Assembly (NCBI GenBank): GCA_903925075.1
Contig: CAIYDQ010000156.1
Span: 1 to 51,517 of the forward strand
Direction: 5' to 3'
DNA length: 51,517 nucleotides
Source: an uncultured Geobacter sp.
GTDB lineage: Bacteria; Desulfobacterota; Desulfuromonadia; Geobacterales; Geobacteraceae
Shown piece after piece: positions 26,636 to 47,947 of the stretch (position 1 is its first letter; each line of letters opens with the position of its first letter). The notes under the pieces are model-generated. The model was not told the origin of the DNA. It searched no databases and saw only the letters and a program-made list of their open reading frames with translations. The position numbers and the translations under genes are program-made.

Positions 26636-27052
26636 TCACTGCGGCGCGCCGCAGGTCTTGAGCTTGCCGTTTTCAAAGAGCGAGATCGGTTCCTGCGCGA
26701 TGCAGGTTTTGCCGTCTATCACCGCCTGCGTCGCCAGTATGCAGCCGTCCAACTTCCCTGATTGATAAAAACTCACCTCGCCGTACTCATTGCACGTGAT
26801 CCCCTCGTAGACGAAGAAGTTCTTGCTGGTGCAGCTTTTCAGCATCCCTAGTTCGTAAAAAACGATCTGGGAGTATTGGTTGCACTTCAGATCACCGACC
26901 ACGAAAATGTCCTTGAGCGGACACGATTTCAATTGGCCGTTGGGATAGTAGGATATGGTGGAACCAGGATTGCAGATCGAAGCGTCGGCTCCCAGACATA
27001 TCCCCGCATTGGCGAGAAGCAGTATGCTTAGAAAAAAAACGGCAAACTTCAT
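26636..27052 (-). CDS. Secreted Cys-paired YwqK/MORN-like repeat protein
   Basis: 138-residue exported protein with a signal peptide (about 1-21). The mature part has four repeats of about 30 residues around the YYPNGQLKSC, FYELGMLKSC, FYQSGKLDGC and LFENGKLKTC cores, each with a Cys at the repeat end and another some 20 residues on (C-N/I...), which suggests disulfides. The repeats resemble the MORN-like YwqK antitoxin family, but this copy is secreted. Start ATG at 27052 behind AGGAGAA. Function unknown. It is convergent with the glycosylase-like gene. Confidence 0.68.
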   Translation of the reverse strand: MKFAVFFLSILLLANAGICLGADASICNPGSTISYYPNGQLKSCPLKDIFVVGDLKCNQYSQIVFYELGMLKSCTSKNFFVYEGITCNEYGEVSFYQSGKLDGCILATQAVIDGKTCIAQEPISLFENGKLKTCGAPQ

Positions 27053-42079: not shown

Positions 42080-43108
42080 ATGTTTAAATCGGTAAAAAGA
42101 ACAATTACGGCGCTGGCGTTGGTCGCGGTGACCGCCGCCGCCGGAACCGCCTCGGCAGAGGTCCTGATCAACGGCGCGGGCGCCACCTTCCCCTATCCGC
42201 TTTACTCGAAATGGTTCAGCGAGTACGCGAAGCTCGACACCAGCGTCAAGTTCAACTACCAGTCCATCGGCAGCGGCGGCGGCATCAAGCAGATCACTGC
42301 GCAGACCGTGGACTTCGGGGCGAGCGATAAATTCCTCAGCGACGAAGAGTTGAAAGCGGCCCCCGGCAAGCTGATTCACATCCCGACCGTAATGGGCGCG
42401 GTCGTGGTCACCTACAACGTTCCGGGCGTCGCCAAGGGGTTGAAGCTCAATTCTGAAGAAGTCGCCAACATCTACCTCGGCAAGATCACCATGTGGAACG
42501 ACGCGAAGATCGCGGGCGACAACCCCGGCGTGCAGCTCCCCGCCAAGCCGATCGTGGTGGTGCACCGCTCCGACGGTAGCGGCACGACCAGCATCTTCAC
42601 CGACTATCTTTCCGCAGTCAGCCAGGAGTGGTCGCAGAAGGTAGGCAAGGGCGCCTCGGTCAAGTGGCCGGTCGGTTTGGGCGGCAAAGGGAACGAGGGC
42701 GTTGCCGGTCAGATCAAGACCACGCCCTATTCGGTCGGCTACGTGGAGCTTGCCTATGCCTTCGAAAACAAGCTTCCCTACGCATGGCTTAAAAACAAGA
42801 GTGGCGTCTTCGTGGAGCCTTCCATCCACTCCACCAGCGCGGCGGCTGCCGGTGCGGCAAAGAACATGCCGGCCGATTACCGTATTTCCCTGGTCAACCA
42901 GGCCGGCAAGGACGCTTACCCGGTGGTCGGCTTCACCTGGCTGCTGGTCTATGAGCATCAAAAAGACGCCGTCAAGGGGAAAAAGCTGGTCGAGTTCCTG
43001 AACTGGAGTCTGCACAAAGGGCAGAAGATGGCCTCCCCCATGCTCTACGCGCCGCTTCCCGAAAACGTGCAGAAAATGGTGGAAAAAACCATCAAGAGCA
43101 TCAAGTAG
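42080..43108 (+). CDS. pstS: Phosphate-binding periplasmic protein PstS (copy 2)
   Basis: 343-residue paralogue of the pstS at 974-2002, with a different signal peptide (ends ASA) and the same mature start EVLINGAGATFPYPLYSKWF. The binding motifs GSGGGIKQI, DFGASD and HRSDGSGTTS are intact. It has no permease genes beside it, so it must feed the PstCAB from the other locus. The start follows AAAGGAGGAG. Its upstream Pho box and -10 are the best in the window, so it may be the strongly induced copy under phosphate limitation. Confidence 0.95.
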   Translation: MFKSVKRTITALALVAVTAAAGTASAEVLINGAGATFPYPLYSKWFSEYAKLDTSVKFNYQSIGSGGGIKQITAQTVDFGASDKFLSDEELKAAPGKLIHIPTVMGAVVVTYNVPGVAKGLKLNSEEVANIYLGKITMWNDAKIAGDNPGVQLPAKPIVVVHRSDGSGTTSIFTDYLSAVSQEWSQKVGKGASVKWPVGLGGKGNEGVAGQIKTTPYSVGYVELAYAFENKLPYAWLKNKSGVFVEPSIHSTSAAAAGAAKNMPADYRISLVNQAGKDAYPVVGFTWLLVYEHQKDAVKGKKLVEFLNWSLHKGQKMASPMLYAPLPENVQKMVEKTIKSIK

Positions 43109-43136
43109 CAAGTAGGGATGGACGATTGACTTCCCC

Positions 43137-43179
43137 GCGCCTGACCGGTCGGCTATTGCTGCCGGCCAGGCGCTTTTTT
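43137..43179 (+). terminator. Intrinsic terminator after pstS2
   Basis: GCGCCTGACCGG pairs with CCGGCCAGGCGC (one mismatch) and is followed by TTTTTT. Confidence 0.85.
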
Positions 43180-43212
43180 GTGCGGCCAGGCAGCGCCAAC
43201 GGCAGGGACATC

Positions 43213-43371
43213 ATGGCTATAATCCGGGGTGTGTGGAAGGTGTTGAGAGCGGTGGGCCTGCTGGCGCTGCTGACTTGTCTGGTGAGCGCTGTGCTGATCG
43301 CTTCCTGTCTGGCGAGCCTGTTGTCGGGAGGCGGGATGGCGGCGCGCGGAAGAGTTCGCCTTGGCGCCTGA
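43213..43371 (+). CDS. Possible small single-TM protein
   Basis: 52 residues with one hydrophobic segment of about 22 residues near the middle (VGLLALLTCLVSAVLIASCL). CAGGGA lies upstream. It lies just after the pstS2 terminator and may be spurious. Confidence 0.25.
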   Translation: MAIIRGVWKVLRAVGLLALLTCLVSAVLIASCLASLLSGGGMAARGRVRLGA

Positions 43372-43394
43372 CGGTTGTCGAGGGGAAGGCGTTG

Positions 43395-43700
43395 TTAAAA
43401 GACTCTCCGCAAGAGAGCGTAAACCCTCCGCGAATTGTGAGTCGCTTGACATCTCAGCGCGAGCCTCGGCTGCAGATGGATTTGACGCCTCAGTTCGGAG
43501 GCGGTTTCCGAAGCTGACTGCGAGCTATCAACCGCGGCAGGGAAGCCGCCATAGTTGTCGGCCGATGCTTGCGTAAGGTCGGCGCCGCACGCCAACGGAT
43601 TCCTGATCGGTGCTGCCGGCCTGCGGACGTATACGAGGCGTCGGAACCTCCCCTCGATGATCACACCTCCTGGTACCCACTCGATGATTTTCTGCGACAT
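43395..43700 (-). CDS. Small orphan protein, putative sigma-54-controlled target
   Basis: 101 residues, starting MSQKIIEWVPGGVIIEGRF, behind GGAGGACGCC at ideal spacing on the minus strand. I do not recognise the family. The second half is low-similarity and may not be conserved. Upstream on the same strand lie a -24/-12 promoter (GG-N10-GC) and three TGTCC-N6-GGACA palindromes, so expression is probably controlled by the NtrC-type regulator next door. A frame 144 bp longer has no ribosome site. Confidence 0.45.
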   Translation of the reverse strand: MSQKIIEWVPGGVIIEGRFRRLVYVRRPAAPIRNPLACGADLTQASADNYGGFPAAVDSSQSASETASELRRQIHLQPRLALRCQATHNSRRVYALLRRVF

Positions 43701-43741
43701 GGCGTCCTCCTGAAACACAACGATAATTGAACCTCCTCGTC

Positions 43742-43757
43742 TGTCCTCGACGGGACA
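43742..43757. promoter_or_regulatory. TGTCC-N6-GGACA palindrome in the 5' leader
   Basis: TGTCCTCGACGGGACA, with flanking C and G extending the arms to 6 bp. It falls between the sigma-54 promoter and the start codon of the small gene, about 25-40 bp into the transcript. Same form as the two sites at 44018-44052. Confidence 0.6.
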
Positions 43758-43792
43758 GTTCGCCCCCGTTGCGCCTACCTTCACCATACCCC

Positions 43793-43810
43793 TAGCGATT
43801 TTCGTGCCGT
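43793..43810 (-). promoter_or_regulatory. Sigma-54 promoter of the small orphan gene
   Basis: On the minus strand CGGCACGAAAATCGCT: GG (43808-43807), exactly 10 bp, then GC (43796-43795), with the GGCACG core. It predicts a start near 43783, giving a leader of about 83 nt. Confidence 0.55.
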
Positions 43811-44017
43811 AAGAAATATCCGGAACCGCCGCTCTGCGCCGCAAGGGTGCAAAGGGCGCGAAAAAAGGCGGAAAAGCGATAAAACGCCCGCACCCGAACC
43901 AATCAGGTCAGGGAGTTACCGGAAAACGCCTCCCTTTTCCCGGCGTGCTTGGCGTCGTTGCGGTGCCGGCTATTTTTCGGGGTTGTTGGAGCGTCGCCTG
44001 TCGGTCGCGGGAAAGAA

Positions 44018-44052
44018 TGTCCGAAACGGGACGCCTTGTCCCGAATGGGACA
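44018..44052. promoter_or_regulatory. Two enhancer-like TGTCC-N6-GGAC(A) sites
   Basis: TGTCCGAAACGGGACG (44018-44033) and TGTCCCGAATGGGACA (44037-44052), 19 bp apart, the second a perfect palindrome. They lie about 60 bp after the end of the regulator gene and 235-270 bp upstream of the sigma-54 start site, a normal distance for NtrC-type enhancers. Confidence 0.62.
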
Positions 44053-44108
44053 GTGGGGACGCGCGCGGGAGCGGCGGGTGGGGAGGAGGGGGGAAGCGGG
44101 GGGCTTAG

Positions 44109-45476
44109 TCAGTAGAACAGCTTGCGGGAGGCTTTCAACAGGCGCGCCGCGCTGGATTTGTTGCCGTCGCACTGCTCCAGTGCCCACTCCAGCAGTTGCT
44201 CCGTGACGGCGCTCAGCGAAAAATCCGCGCGCGAGAAGTTGAAACTGAAGGCGATCCGGTCCTGCGCGGGGTCCAGCACGGTCGAGCACTGCACTGCCGA
44301 GCACTGCTTCAGGCGCAGGTGTTCCGGCCGGATCAGATCGCCGCTGCTGACGATGGCGGCATATTCAAGCTGGTTGCGCAGTTCCCGCACGTTGCCGGGC
44401 CAGTCATGGGACATCAACAGATCGAGGGCCGCCGTGGAGATGCCCGGCAACGGTTTCCCCTGGTGCTGCCGGAAGTGGCCGAGAAACTGTTCGGCAAGCT
44501 CCGGGATGTCCTCGCGACGCTCCCGCAAGGGCGGGATGGTCACGGGAAAGATGTTGAGCCGATGGTAGAGGTCGAGCCGGAAGGTCCCTTGTTGGCAGCA
44601 GTCGTCCAGGTTGCGGTGGGTGGCGACGATGATCCTGAAATCGGCGGTCACCTTGCGGTCGGAACCTACCTTCTCGTAGGTCCGCTCCTCAAGCAGGCGC
44701 AGCAGCTTTGGTTGCAGCGACAGCGGCATGTCGCCGATCTCGTCCAGGAACAGCGTTCCCCCGTTTGCCCGGCTGCATTTTCCCTCTCGTTCGCGATCGG
44801 CGCCGGTAAAGGCGCCCTTCACGTGGCCGAACAACTCGCTTTCCAAAAGCGTTTCCGGGATGGCGGCGCAGTTGACCGCCACGAAGCTGGTCATGTTCTC
44901 GCCTGAAGCGATGTGGATAGCCTGCGCCAGGACCTCTTTGCCGACTCCGCTCTCGCCGTAGATGGCGACCGTGGTGCGGGGGGAGGCGGCGACCTGCCGC
45001 GCCGCCGCCAGAGTTCCCTTCATGGCTTGCGAACTGCTGGTGATGTTCTGAAAACTGAATTTCTCCCGCTCGCAATCCAGCATCCGATCGTAACTGACCC
45101 GCAATTGGGCATGTTCCAGCAGCCGTTTTACCACCAACAACAGCTCCACCCGGTTGAGCGGCTTCAGCAGGTAGTCGTCGGCTCCTTCTCTCATGGCGGC
45201 CACCGCGCTGTCGACGCTGCCGTGGGCGGTGACCAGCACGAAGGGGAGCTGCGGATGGCGACCGCGCACCCGGTGCAGCAAGGCCACCCCATCCATCTGC
45301 GGCATGACCATGTCGGAGAGCACCAGGTCGAAGCCGCCGTTCTCCAGTTCAGCCAGGGCCTCGTTCGCGCCGGGGACGCAGGTCGCGCGGTATCCGGCAT
45401 CGTCAAGGTATCCCTTGATCATGAAACGGAAACTCTGCTTGTCGTCCACCACCAGTATCCGTTGCCCGCCGCTCAT
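44109..45476 (-). CDS. NtrC-family sigma-54-dependent response regulator
   Basis: 455 residues. The receiver (1-120) has D55 (LVLSDMVMPQMD). The AAA+ domain (about 135-365) shows GESGVGKEVLAQAIH (Walker A), the sigma-54 contact loop GAFTGAD and LFLDEIGDM (Walker B). The Fis-type HTH ends at SSAARLLKASRKLFY, a few residues short of most relatives. The start at 45476 overlaps the kinase stop by 4 bp (ATGA). It probably binds the TGTCC-N6-GGACA sites downstream and activates the small gene. Confidence 0.9.
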   Translation of the reverse strand: MSGGQRILVVDDKQSFRFMIKGYLDDAGYRATCVPGANEALAELENGGFDLVLSDMVMPQMDGVALLHRVRGRHPQLPFVLVTAHGSVDSAVAAMREGADDYLLKPLNRVELLLVVKRLLEHAQLRVSYDRMLDCEREKFSFQNITSSSQAMKGTLAAARQVAASPRTTVAIYGESGVGKEVLAQAIHIASGENMTSFVAVNCAAIPETLLESELFGHVKGAFTGADREREGKCSRANGGTLFLDEIGDMPLSLQPKLLRLLEERTYEKVGSDRKVTADFRIIVATHRNLDDCCQQGTFRLDLYHRLNIFPVTIPPLRERREDIPELAEQFLGHFRQHQGKPLPGISTAALDLLMSHDWPGNVRELRNQLEYAAIVSSGDLIRPEHLRLKQCSAVQCSTVLDPAQDRIAFSFNFSRADFSLSAVTEQLLEWALEQCDGNKSSAARLLKASRKLFY

Positions 45477-47947
45477 GACTCGTCCTCCCTCGACGCTTGC
45501 GCCATGCCGACTTGACGCGCGGTCCGCAGCTGTTCCATCACCGCTCGCAAGCGTTCGGGCCGGGCGCTTTGAGCGTTCAGCTGCAGCCACTGCGCCAGCG
45601 AGGCCGGTTCCCGGTTTGCCAGGTGTCCGCAGAGCCCCTTCAGGGCGTGCGCGGCCCGCTGCACGCCGTCGCGGTCGTCGCGCTCCAGGACCTCCCGCAG
45701 GCTGTGCAACTCCTCGTCGATATCCTGGAGCAGCATCTCTTTGTACTGCCGCGCGCGTTCCGTATCGTGCCCCAGGTCCGCGCAGGTGGGTTCGTTCAGC
45801 AACAGCTCCTCGTCCGGCGACGATCTCAGCGGCCCCTTGCAGTAGGGAGCCACCGCCAGGGCCAACAGTTCCGGGATGATCGGTTTCGCCAGTACCGAAT
45901 CGATGCCGGCGGCCAGGCAGGCGTCGCGGGTGGCCTTGTCGACGTCGGCGGTTATGGCGATGATCGGCACCGGCGTCTCGGAGCGTTCGCGTTCACTGCC
46001 TCTGATCCGGCGGGCGACTTCGATGCCGTCGATGCCGGGCATGCGGATGTCAAGCAGCAGCAGGTCGAAACGCTGCCGCTCCAGGAACTGCAGGGCCTGT
46101 CGACCGTCCTTAGCCAGCACGACCCGCTGGCCCCAGGACGAGAGCATATCCCCGAGCAGGCGGCGGCTGAATCCGTTGTCCTCGACGACCAAGACCGCGC
46201 TTGGAGCCAGGTTGGTCAGCGTCGCCGGCGGATCGTCCGGCGCCGGATCGGTTTCCCGAAGCGGCAGCTCGACGGTGAAGCAGCTCCCCGCGCCTTCCCG
46301 GCTGTCGACGCCGATGCTCCCCTTCATCATAGTCACCAGGCTGTGGACGATGGCCAGCCCGAGACCGGTGCCGCCGAATTTGCGGTTGATGGTAGGGTCG
46401 AGTTGGCGGAAAGGTTGGAAGAGCAGCGAGCGGCTGTTTTCCGCGATGCCGATGCCGGTGTCGCGCACCTCGAAGCGAATCAGCGGATCCCCCTCTTCCC
46501 CGGTTCGATCGAGCAGGGTTACGGCGCAGGAGACCGTGCCGCTCTCGGTAAACTTGACGGCGTTGGAAAGCAGGTTGGTCAGGATCTGGCGCAGGCGGAC
46601 CGGATCGCCGAGGACCCAGCGGGGTAGCTGATCGGCCACCGTGACCCGGAACGCCAAGTTCTTCCGGTCCGCCAGGGGGCTATACTGTTCTTCCAGGCCG
46701 GCAACGAGCTGCCCCAGATCGAACGGCAGGTTCTCAAGCTCCATGCGCCCCGCCTCGATCTTGCTCATGTCCAGGATGCCGTTCACCAGTTCCATCAGGG
46801 CCCGGGACGATTGTTCCAGGATGCCGAGATACTGATCGATCTTGACGGGATCGGTAGCCTTGCGAGCCATGCTGCTGAAACCGACCAGGGCGTTTAGCGG
46901 CGTGCGGATCTCGTGGCTCATCACGGCCAGGAATTGACTCTTGGCCTTATTGGCCTCTTCCGCGGCGGCTTTGGCCTGGCGGGATTTCTCTTCTACCAGC
47001 TTGCGTTCGGTTATTTCCCGGGTTATGCCGTGGAAACCGGTGACCGTACCGTTCGCGTCGCGCTCGGGGGTGGAGTTTATTTCCGCCCACAACCATCTGC
47101 CGTCCTTGCAGCGGTGCCGCGCCTCGAAGGTCAACGTGCCGGTCCGAGTCCCGCGCCGTTCCGCGTCGTGCCTTAGCAGGGCCATTTTCTTGAGCGAAGC
47201 TATCCCGTCCTCGTCGAACATTTCGAAGACATGGCTGCCAATCACTTCCTCGGCCTGGTAGCCGCGCAGCCGCTCGTCGGCCGGGCTCACGTAGGTGAAG
47301 CGATAATCCCGGTCCAGCTTCCAGACCACGTCCGAGGCGTCTTCGGTCAGCAGTCGGTAGTAGGTCTCGCTTTCCCGCAGGGACTGCACGGCCTGTCTGT
47401 GCTCCGCGATCTCTTTCGCCAGTTCTTCGTTGGTCCGTTGCAGCTTCTCGTTGGCGTCGGAGAGTTGAGCGGTCCGTTCGGCGATCTGCTCTTCCAGGAT
47501 CTGGTTGCGCTCCACCAGTTCCTGCAACGGATAGACCTCACCCTCGCGCACCATGTAGTACGGAATGGATATGCTGCTGTGCGCTATCTTCCAGTCCGCC
47601 GATTCCTTGTGGAAAATCAGCACCAGGCGGACCGTCTCGCGCGACAGGAAGTGGTCTTTGATGGGAAGTTGGATGTTGAAAAAGCTGGTGGCGACGGCGA
47701 CCGTGTCGGCCAGCGATTGGATGGAAAAATCCTTGAGCTCGATATGCAGCGGATCCTTAACCTGGTCGAAGTCCTGGCGGGTAATGGCGACCCACGCTTC
47801 CCTGTCCTTGACCAGAAAATCGCCGCCGCCGGTAAAGCCTGAAAAGTCGTCGCTGAAATGGGCGGTGAGCCGGTCGTCGCGCGCCGCGTACATGCGCAGA
47901 TAGTCGTCAAGCAGTTGCCGGATTTTTTGATGGTCGCTTGCATTCAT
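45473..47947 (-). CDS. Hybrid histidine kinase with N-terminal NTF2/SnoaL-like sensor
   Basis: 824-residue soluble protein. An N-terminal SnoaL/NTF2-like alpha+beta domain (about 1-135) is followed by a coiled coil (140-205), PAS (210-325), HisKA with H345 (MSHEIRTPLNAL), HATPase (NLLSNAVKFT, DTGIGIAENS and GGTGLGLAIVHSL), receiver with D633 (LLLLDIRMPGID) and an Hpt domain with H767 (HALKGLCGHL). No TM segment. The NTF2-like sensor suggests a small cytosolic ligand. It is the first gene of the pair, coupled to the regulator. Confidence 0.9.
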   Translation of the reverse strand: MNASDHQKIRQLLDDYLRMYAARDDRLTAHFSDDFSGFTGGGDFLVKDREAWVAITRQDFDQVKDPLHIELKDFSIQSLADTVAVATSFFNIQLPIKDHFLSRETVRLVLIFHKESADWKIAHSSISIPYYMVREGEVYPLQELVERNQILEEQIAERTAQLSDANEKLQRTNEELAKEIAEHRQAVQSLRESETYYRLLTEDASDVVWKLDRDYRFTYVSPADERLRGYQAEEVIGSHVFEMFDEDGIASLKKMALLRHDAERRGTRTGTLTFEARHRCKDGRWLWAEINSTPERDANGTVTGFHGITREITERKLVEEKSRQAKAAAEEANKAKSQFLAVMSHEIRTPLNALVGFSSMARKATDPVKIDQYLGILEQSSRALMELVNGILDMSKIEAGRMELENLPFDLGQLVAGLEEQYSPLADRKNLAFRVTVADQLPRWVLGDPVRLRQILTNLLSNAVKFTESGTVSCAVTLLDRTGEEGDPLIRFEVRDTGIGIAENSRSLLFQPFRQLDPTINRKFGGTGLGLAIVHSLVTMMKGSIGVDSREGAGSCFTVELPLRETDPAPDDPPATLTNLAPSAVLVVEDNGFSRRLLGDMLSSWGQRVVLAKDGRQALQFLERQRFDLLLLDIRMPGIDGIEVARRIRGSERERSETPVPIIAITADVDKATRDACLAAGIDSVLAKPIIPELLALAVAPYCKGPLRSSPDEELLLNEPTCADLGHDTERARQYKEMLLQDIDEELHSLREVLERDDRDGVQRAAHALKGLCGHLANREPASLAQWLQLNAQSARPERLRAVMEQLRTARQVGMAQASREDES

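Follow-up and report, generated by a model that had tools for sequence, protein, structure and literature searches.

In the NorR system, three upstream enhancer sites are essential and act as a scaffold for oligomer assembly, according to the available portions of PMC2941729. A second described system, PrsK/PrsR of the PEP-CTERM proteins, corresponds to TIGR02916/TIGR02915 in the accessible sections of PMC1569441. The Os1348 family, or Franean1_4349 peptide, is represented by NF038399 and PF14407; Os1348 comes from Pseudomonas sp. Os17, and in the accessible text of PMC7726476 GacA is reported to control its expression.

We compared these systems with a locus in a stretch of 51,517 nucleotides from an uncultured Geobacter sp. 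(contig CAIYDQ010000156.1), which was analyzed as a whole and is referred to as the window. The locus resembles NorR and the NtrC type in combining an AAA+ sigma-54 activator, a Fis-type HTH and three palindromic sites per promoter. However, all three NorR sites lie upstream of the promoter, whereas the third site of the window cassette lies downstream of the predicted start, and the NorR motif and sensor also differ from those found here. With PrsK/PrsR, as far as the accessible sections of PMC1569441 go, the locus shares a kinase with an NtrC-type regulator, several targets per genome, and an upstream motif, sometimes repeated, which in PrsK/PrsR lies about 63 nt before the -24/-12 motif; the PrsK/PrsR motif, in contrast, ends in TTTACA, and those sections do not describe a leader site. 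Assignment of the window regulator to PrsR (TIGR02915) was rejected, since it scored 329 bits where the cut-off is 502.6. The likeness to Os1348 lies in two cassette peptides of relatives (L041 and L039) that exceed the NF038399 cut-off, whereas in the window protein only about 23 residues are retained; a neighbour of Os1348 matches the HExxH family TIGR04267, for which none of the 9 genomes searched here gave a match. The system is of an already known kind, a two-component sigma-54 regulon. It is unusual, to our knowledge, for sigma-54 systems to have a conserved activator site within the leader at a fixed spacing.

None of the literature matches listed mentions the motif or the cassette in its title or the opening of its abstract. 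A leader site and a link to Os1348-type peptides were likewise absent among the matches listed, which is weak evidence of absence, subscription papers lying mostly outside the scope of the search. By term search, the accessible main text of PMC4641369 and PMC2725144 contained neither TGTCC nor GGACA, and the accessible text of PMC2887384 mentioned neither Geobacter nor sigma.

The sensor and the regulator are both encoded on the minus strand by intact frames, a hybrid histidine kinase of 824 aa (45473..47947) and an NtrC-type response regulator of 455 aa (44109..45476), and the kinase stop and regulator start overlap by 4 bp (ATGA). Pfam assigned SnoaL/NTF2-like (SnoaL_3), PAS, HisKA, HATPase_c, REC and Hpt domains to the kinase, and the match of its N-terminus to the SnoaL/NTF2-like family PF13474 (7.6e-26) agrees with the NTF2-type sensor proposed in the original prediction. 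The regulator, characterized by Pfam and alignment, has the domains of the NtrC type, namely REC, the sigma-54 activation AAA+ domain (Sigma54_activat) and a short Fis-type HTH ending in SRKLFY; PF00072 and PF00158 scored above the cut-off and HTH_8 just under it (21.2 versus 22 bits).

The original prediction placed three copies of TGTCC-N6-GGACA between the regulator gene and the small gene. Motif scanning found two of them exact, upstream site 1 (44037..44052, minus strand), which belongs to a conserved pair, and the leader site (43742..43757, minus strand), which has a conserved position; the remaining copy, upstream site 2 (44018..44033, minus strand), 19 bp from site 1, ends in GGACG and has one mismatch. 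Comparison of cassettes delimited a spacer of 208 bp on the same strand (43810..44017) between site 2 and the -24/-12 sigma-54 promoter CGGCACGAAAATCGC (43795..43809, minus strand), which was recognized from the sequence and the promoter columns of 49 cassettes and lies, as predicted, between the regulator gene and the small gene. By the usual -24/-12 geometry, +1 is predicted near 43783. Relative to this predicted start, site 1 lies at about -269 to -254, the two sites of the pair together span about -269 to -235, and the third copy falls at about +27 to +42, within the leader as originally described.

The unusual feature is the clustering of the sites, not the number of motifs across the window. 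With up to two mismatches, the motif was not enriched window-wide (18 found versus 22.3 expected). Among 400 random windows generated with a first-order Markov model, none had three sites with at most one mismatch inside 320 bp, and 5 had two such sites. A possible fourth copy at 43999 is weak, with two mismatches, and keeps the 19-bp step; it may be due to chance. The site pair (up to two mismatches) occurs only once in its own genome. The 6.55 Mb genome holds 5 exact copies of the motif and 2 of the reversed control; three of the 5 lie outside the cluster (at 26908 in the window and on two other contigs) and were dismissed as chance, being located inside two frames or beside a CRISPR-like array. 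The N7 form of the motif, present in 5 places versus 7 for the control, was also set aside as background, except for a pair on contig 305. The spacer is present once in the genome and lacks inverted repeats of at least 12 bp, and Rfam gave a single match in positions 43000-44200, which was disregarded (E 0.59, 17.1 bits versus a gathering score of 44). As separate observations, the window carries a tandem array near the contig end (51169-51372, period 41, about 5 copies), and another locus of the same genome (L001) contains, by eye, CRISPR-like repeats and a Cas7-like frame, together with one motif copy that is probably there by chance.

Conservation was examined in 277 genomes of the class by two independent routes. 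A DNA-only search for the 19-bp pair, which allowed up to two mismatches and was run without reference to any gene, found it in 30 genomes (2 of 277 for the reversed control). A protein-only search for the regulator (E<=1e-180) also returned 30 genomes, 29 of them other than that of the window and with 73-82% identity. The two sets had 28 genomes in common (Fisher p 9.5e-34, relatedness ignored). In the conservation test set beforehand, which required the -24/-12 promoter and the activator sites to be kept next to orthologues of the kinase-regulator pair, the paired sites, the promoter and the leader site were found close behind the regulator in 26 of 30 orthologues, the window included. The rules allowed N6 or N7, up to three mismatches over the pair and up to two at the leader, and either GC or GT at -12. 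In these 26 loci the pair starts at most 174 bp past the last codon of the regulator; the leader site of one of them (G088) has two mismatches. The REC-Hpt kinase tail stands immediately upstream of the regulator in all 29 other orthologues examined, and the NTF2-like N-terminus was seen in the 5 of 5 loci that were long enough, one of them partial. This conservation strongly supports a predicted sigma-54 circuit made up of the paired sites, the promoter and the leader site.

The exceptions varied in type. Four genomes (G184, G186, G187 and G221) have no cassette within 400 bp of the regulator and carry pairs elsewhere. Two genomes with the regulator that the pair pattern missed, G198 (L179/L197) and G228 (L175/L196), share the layout except that each of the three sites takes the N7 form; at -12 they read GT instead of GC, which means that the promoters called there may be weak or mistaken. 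G151 has a pair with two mismatches, and neither promoter nor leader site was found there; G226 has a good cassette and no regulator orthologue at E<=1e-120. Relatives carry up to 8 site pairs per genome, and the description of the circuit as self-contained is not supported as a general rule.

The leader site was not a selection criterion in the pair searches. In the pair-locus scan, a promoter and a leader site were nevertheless present in 27 of 30 loci. L074 had neither, and L071 and L077 had no leader site; that of L071 appears when two mismatches are allowed, and that of L077 appears as L131. Searching the species-genome collection for the exact pair alone gave 54 stretches, 27 of which had a leader site 136-150 bp from the pair start, with a promoter between pair and leader site in every case (27/27). 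Twenty of these 27 records are labelled Desulfuromonadales, Geobacteraceae, Geobacter or Geomonas and three Deltaproteobacteria, and there is one each from Nitrospirae, Desulfobulbus, Desulfobacteraceae and Proteobacteria. The third site was absent in 27 of the 54 stretches, including records of acetic acid bacteria, Clostridia and the Prevotellaceae type; L135, from the same search, ends at a contig end and was not judged for the third site.

Some exact pairs lie outside the cassette layout. In Gluconacetobacter and Gluconobacter (L106, L120, L126, L133, L138, L143, L145 and L155), exact tandem pairs occur with no leader site, and they perhaps belong to another regulator with a similar site. 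One Clostridia MAG (L111, L125, L134, L137 and L141) holds five exact tandem pairs with no promoter at the cassette distance, which are another repeated element. A Niveispirillum record (L130) and a Sphingomonadaceae MAG (L154) each combine a pair with a good -24/-12 match at 78 bp and have no leader site.

Stricter rules yielded 49 distinct cassettes with a pair, promoter and leader site, in which the site arms are near-invariant and the inner bases variable. The distance from pair start to promoter start is 85-89 bp in 47 of the 49, 98 bp in one, and 243 bp in the window. From promoter start to leader site the distance is 50-54 bp in all 49, in a scan that permitted 45-60 bp, and the 52 bp of the window is the commonest value in relatives. 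This fixed spacing partly reflects shared descent. The spacer of most relatives is about 53 bp, which leaves that of the window about 155 bp longer. The upstream distance, called normal in the original prediction, is as expected in relatives (about -114 to -80), but the window pair lies about 155 bp further out. As this excess does not correspond to a whole number of helical turns, the switch may work less well here or be dead.

A related arrangement was found beside paralogous regulators with about 50-57% identity. In 9 of 22 loci examined, an N7 site precedes the promoter by about 70 bp, and an N6 palindrome with TGTCC or TGTTC arms lies 41-42 bp past the start of the promoter, a spacing shorter by about one helical turn than the 50-54 bp of the cassette. 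The next gene was a chemoreceptor in all four paralogue loci scanned (L048, L051, L055 and L057). The genome of the window has its own paralogue on contig 305 (L056), a regulator of about 50% identity that is followed by a tandem N7 pair and accompanied by a frame that resembles, by eye, the chemoreceptors of this group; cross-talk with this paralogue is possible.

The small frame of the window (43395..43700, minus strand) has 101 codons and an AGGAGG before its ATG, and no operon follows it. Codons 1-23 (43632..43700, minus strand; MSQKIIEWVPGGVIIEGRFRRLV) are likely a remnant of an Os1348-family peptide gene. Residues 1-23 can be aligned with 21 Os1348-type peptides without a gap (HMM domain E 0.00088, calculated for a very small set), and they rank first among the 2926 starts of the window, whether or not residues 1-3 are counted. 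Since the pattern used to assemble the peptide set required an MSQ-like start, residues 1-3 are no evidence; shuffled versions of residues 4-21 reached the score in 2 of 100,000 cases and, with another background, in 0 of 20,000. The full Os1348/Franean1_4349 domain (about 63 residues) did not reach its cut-off in the window protein. Shortened first frames with an Os1348-like start were also seen in L040 (by eye) and L092 (4 of 20,000 shuffles). Codons 24-101 and the stop (43395..43631, minus strand) look non-coding, with GC contents by codon position of 0.60/0.56/0.67, compared with 0.59-0.66/0.36-0.46/0.78-0.86 in five neighbouring genes (pstS left out). Neither Pfam nor NCBIfam matched this part or the small protein as a whole, and the homologue search proposed for the protein returned a single weak match in 47 other genomes of the family (E 0.003, 28% identity), with an internal stop. 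The 101-residue target is probably for the most part not a gene, and its description as an orphan without a family gives way to an Os1348-like start of 23 residues followed by a gene-unlike remainder.

In relatives, the genes behind the cassettes encode Os1348-family peptides, lipoproteins, phosphoesterases, chemoreceptors, sensor kinases, flagellins and an adhesin-type protein. Of the 30 orthologue loci, 18 carry a frame for an Os1348-type peptide no more than 1.5 kb behind the regulator. Against NF038399, the peptides of L041 (59.4 bits) and L039 (49.8 bits) scored above the cut-off of 40; against PF14407, four peptides tested were all below the cut-off of 48 (46.7, 45.1, 40.8 and 36.8). With three peptides as queries, 10 of 48 genomes of the family gave 13 matches in all and the genome of the window gave none, and 11 of the 13 were within 3 kb of a regulator of the cassette family or its paralogue group. 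The Os1348-type peptides had no relative of solved structure at E 0.1. Metallophosphoesterases of TIGR03768, with twin-arginine-like starts by eye, follow the cassette at six loci (L039, L127, L151, L181, L189 and L194); this family was unmatched in the genome of the window, and the control genomes also gave no match anywhere. Further targets include lipoproteins with DUF3089, Kelch, PAP2 or other phosphoesterase types, chemoreceptors (L112, L115 and L185), sensor kinases (L102, L107, L116 and L123), flagellins (L187, and L191 with RCC1 repeats) and a filamentous-haemagglutinin-type protein (L183); the target proteins of L110, L117 and L119 had no family match on scanning. For a modified peptide (RiPP) system, in which maturation enzymes would stand next to the precursor, the search covered TIGR04267, with no match in 9 genomes, and SagB-type TIGR03605, which was above the cut-off in 5 of 9 genomes, at sites away from the listed cassettes. 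Two histidine kinases (L102:5008-6594 and L123:2938-4524) have Os1348-like first codons, a start whose score was reached by 0 of 20,000 shuffles for L102 and 44 of 20,000 for L123; they look as if the cassette and the 5' end of a peptide gene had been placed before a new gene.

Taken as a whole, these results are best explained by a conserved regulon with a decayed local target, an explanation which we consider probable and which is built on the observed sequence, conservation, spacing and linkage. In this model, the NTF2-like domain of the kinase would sense a signal that is probably cytosolic, and the domain order suggests that phosphate would pass from HisKA to REC, Hpt and the NtrC-type regulator. 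Dimers of the phosphorylated regulator would bind TGTCC-N6-GGACA at the two upstream sites and the leader site, three sites providing for three dimers and one hexamer, and would activate transcription from the sigma-54 promoter. The cassette usually stands right behind the regulator gene in relatives and is repeated elsewhere in some genomes. In the window it has been kept, apart from the one-base fault in site 2 and the spacer lengthened by about 155 bp, and the peptide gene would have been worn down to about 23 codons. We infer the binding, the start site, the phosphorelay and the decay of the target from the sequence.

The state of the window copy could be read in other ways. The 101-residue product might be a real lineage-specific effector, with an Os1348-type start and a new tail, expressed through the switch; its frame is open, the ribosome site is good, the promoter is retained, and a similar start seems to be fused to a histidine kinase in L102 and L123. 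However, the codon-position GC of codons 24-101 is unlike that of the neighbouring genes, family matches are lacking apart from the one weak hit among the 47 genomes, and L040 and L092 have shortened frames with the same start, and we regard such an effector as improbable. It is also rather unlikely that the whole switch is dead here through its long spacer and the fault in site 2, with the regulator working through unlisted sites elsewhere. The pair-promoter distance of 243 bp, against 85-98 bp in the other 48 cassettes, the decayed target and the single pair in the genome would fit a dead switch, but the kinase and regulator frames, the promoter and the leader site are all intact. Enhancers, moreover, generally act at variable distance, which speaks against reading the long spacer as fatal.

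For the leader site, we tentatively favor, at somewhat short of even confidence, the reading that it holds a third dimer that would help the activator hexamer to assemble around the promoter. When phosphorylated regulator is abundant, a dimer at +27 to +42 might instead act as a brake that blocks promoter escape or elongation and produces a self-limiting pulse. The leader site has the same sequence as the upstream pair and lies just past the expected polymerase footprint. Yet a brake would need no fixed distance, and the promoter-to-leader spacing stays within 50-54 bp in every cassette; together with the spacing about one turn shorter in the paralogues, this favors contact with the promoter complex. 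That preference is weakened by shared descent, which could explain both spacings, and a brake appears to us unlikely, if worth keeping in mind. More speculatively, the favored third-dimer reading may be extended to a model in which an active hexamer forms only if the three dimers flank the promoter, two of them upstream and one in the leader at fixed helical spacing, and in which the cassette, with the first Os1348-type codons, has been copied before peptides, kinases, adhesins and phosphoesterases across Desulfuromonadales and relatives, the window copy being lost; we hold this combined proposal to be doubtful at present.

If the model is right, Geobacter-type anaerobes would have a compact, testable regulon whose operator, promoter, sensor and regulator can all be read from the sequence. 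The little-understood Os1348-type peptides would be tied to a dedicated sensor-regulator pair, and an activator site in the leader at fixed spacing would make the assembly of the hexamer on DNA directly testable.
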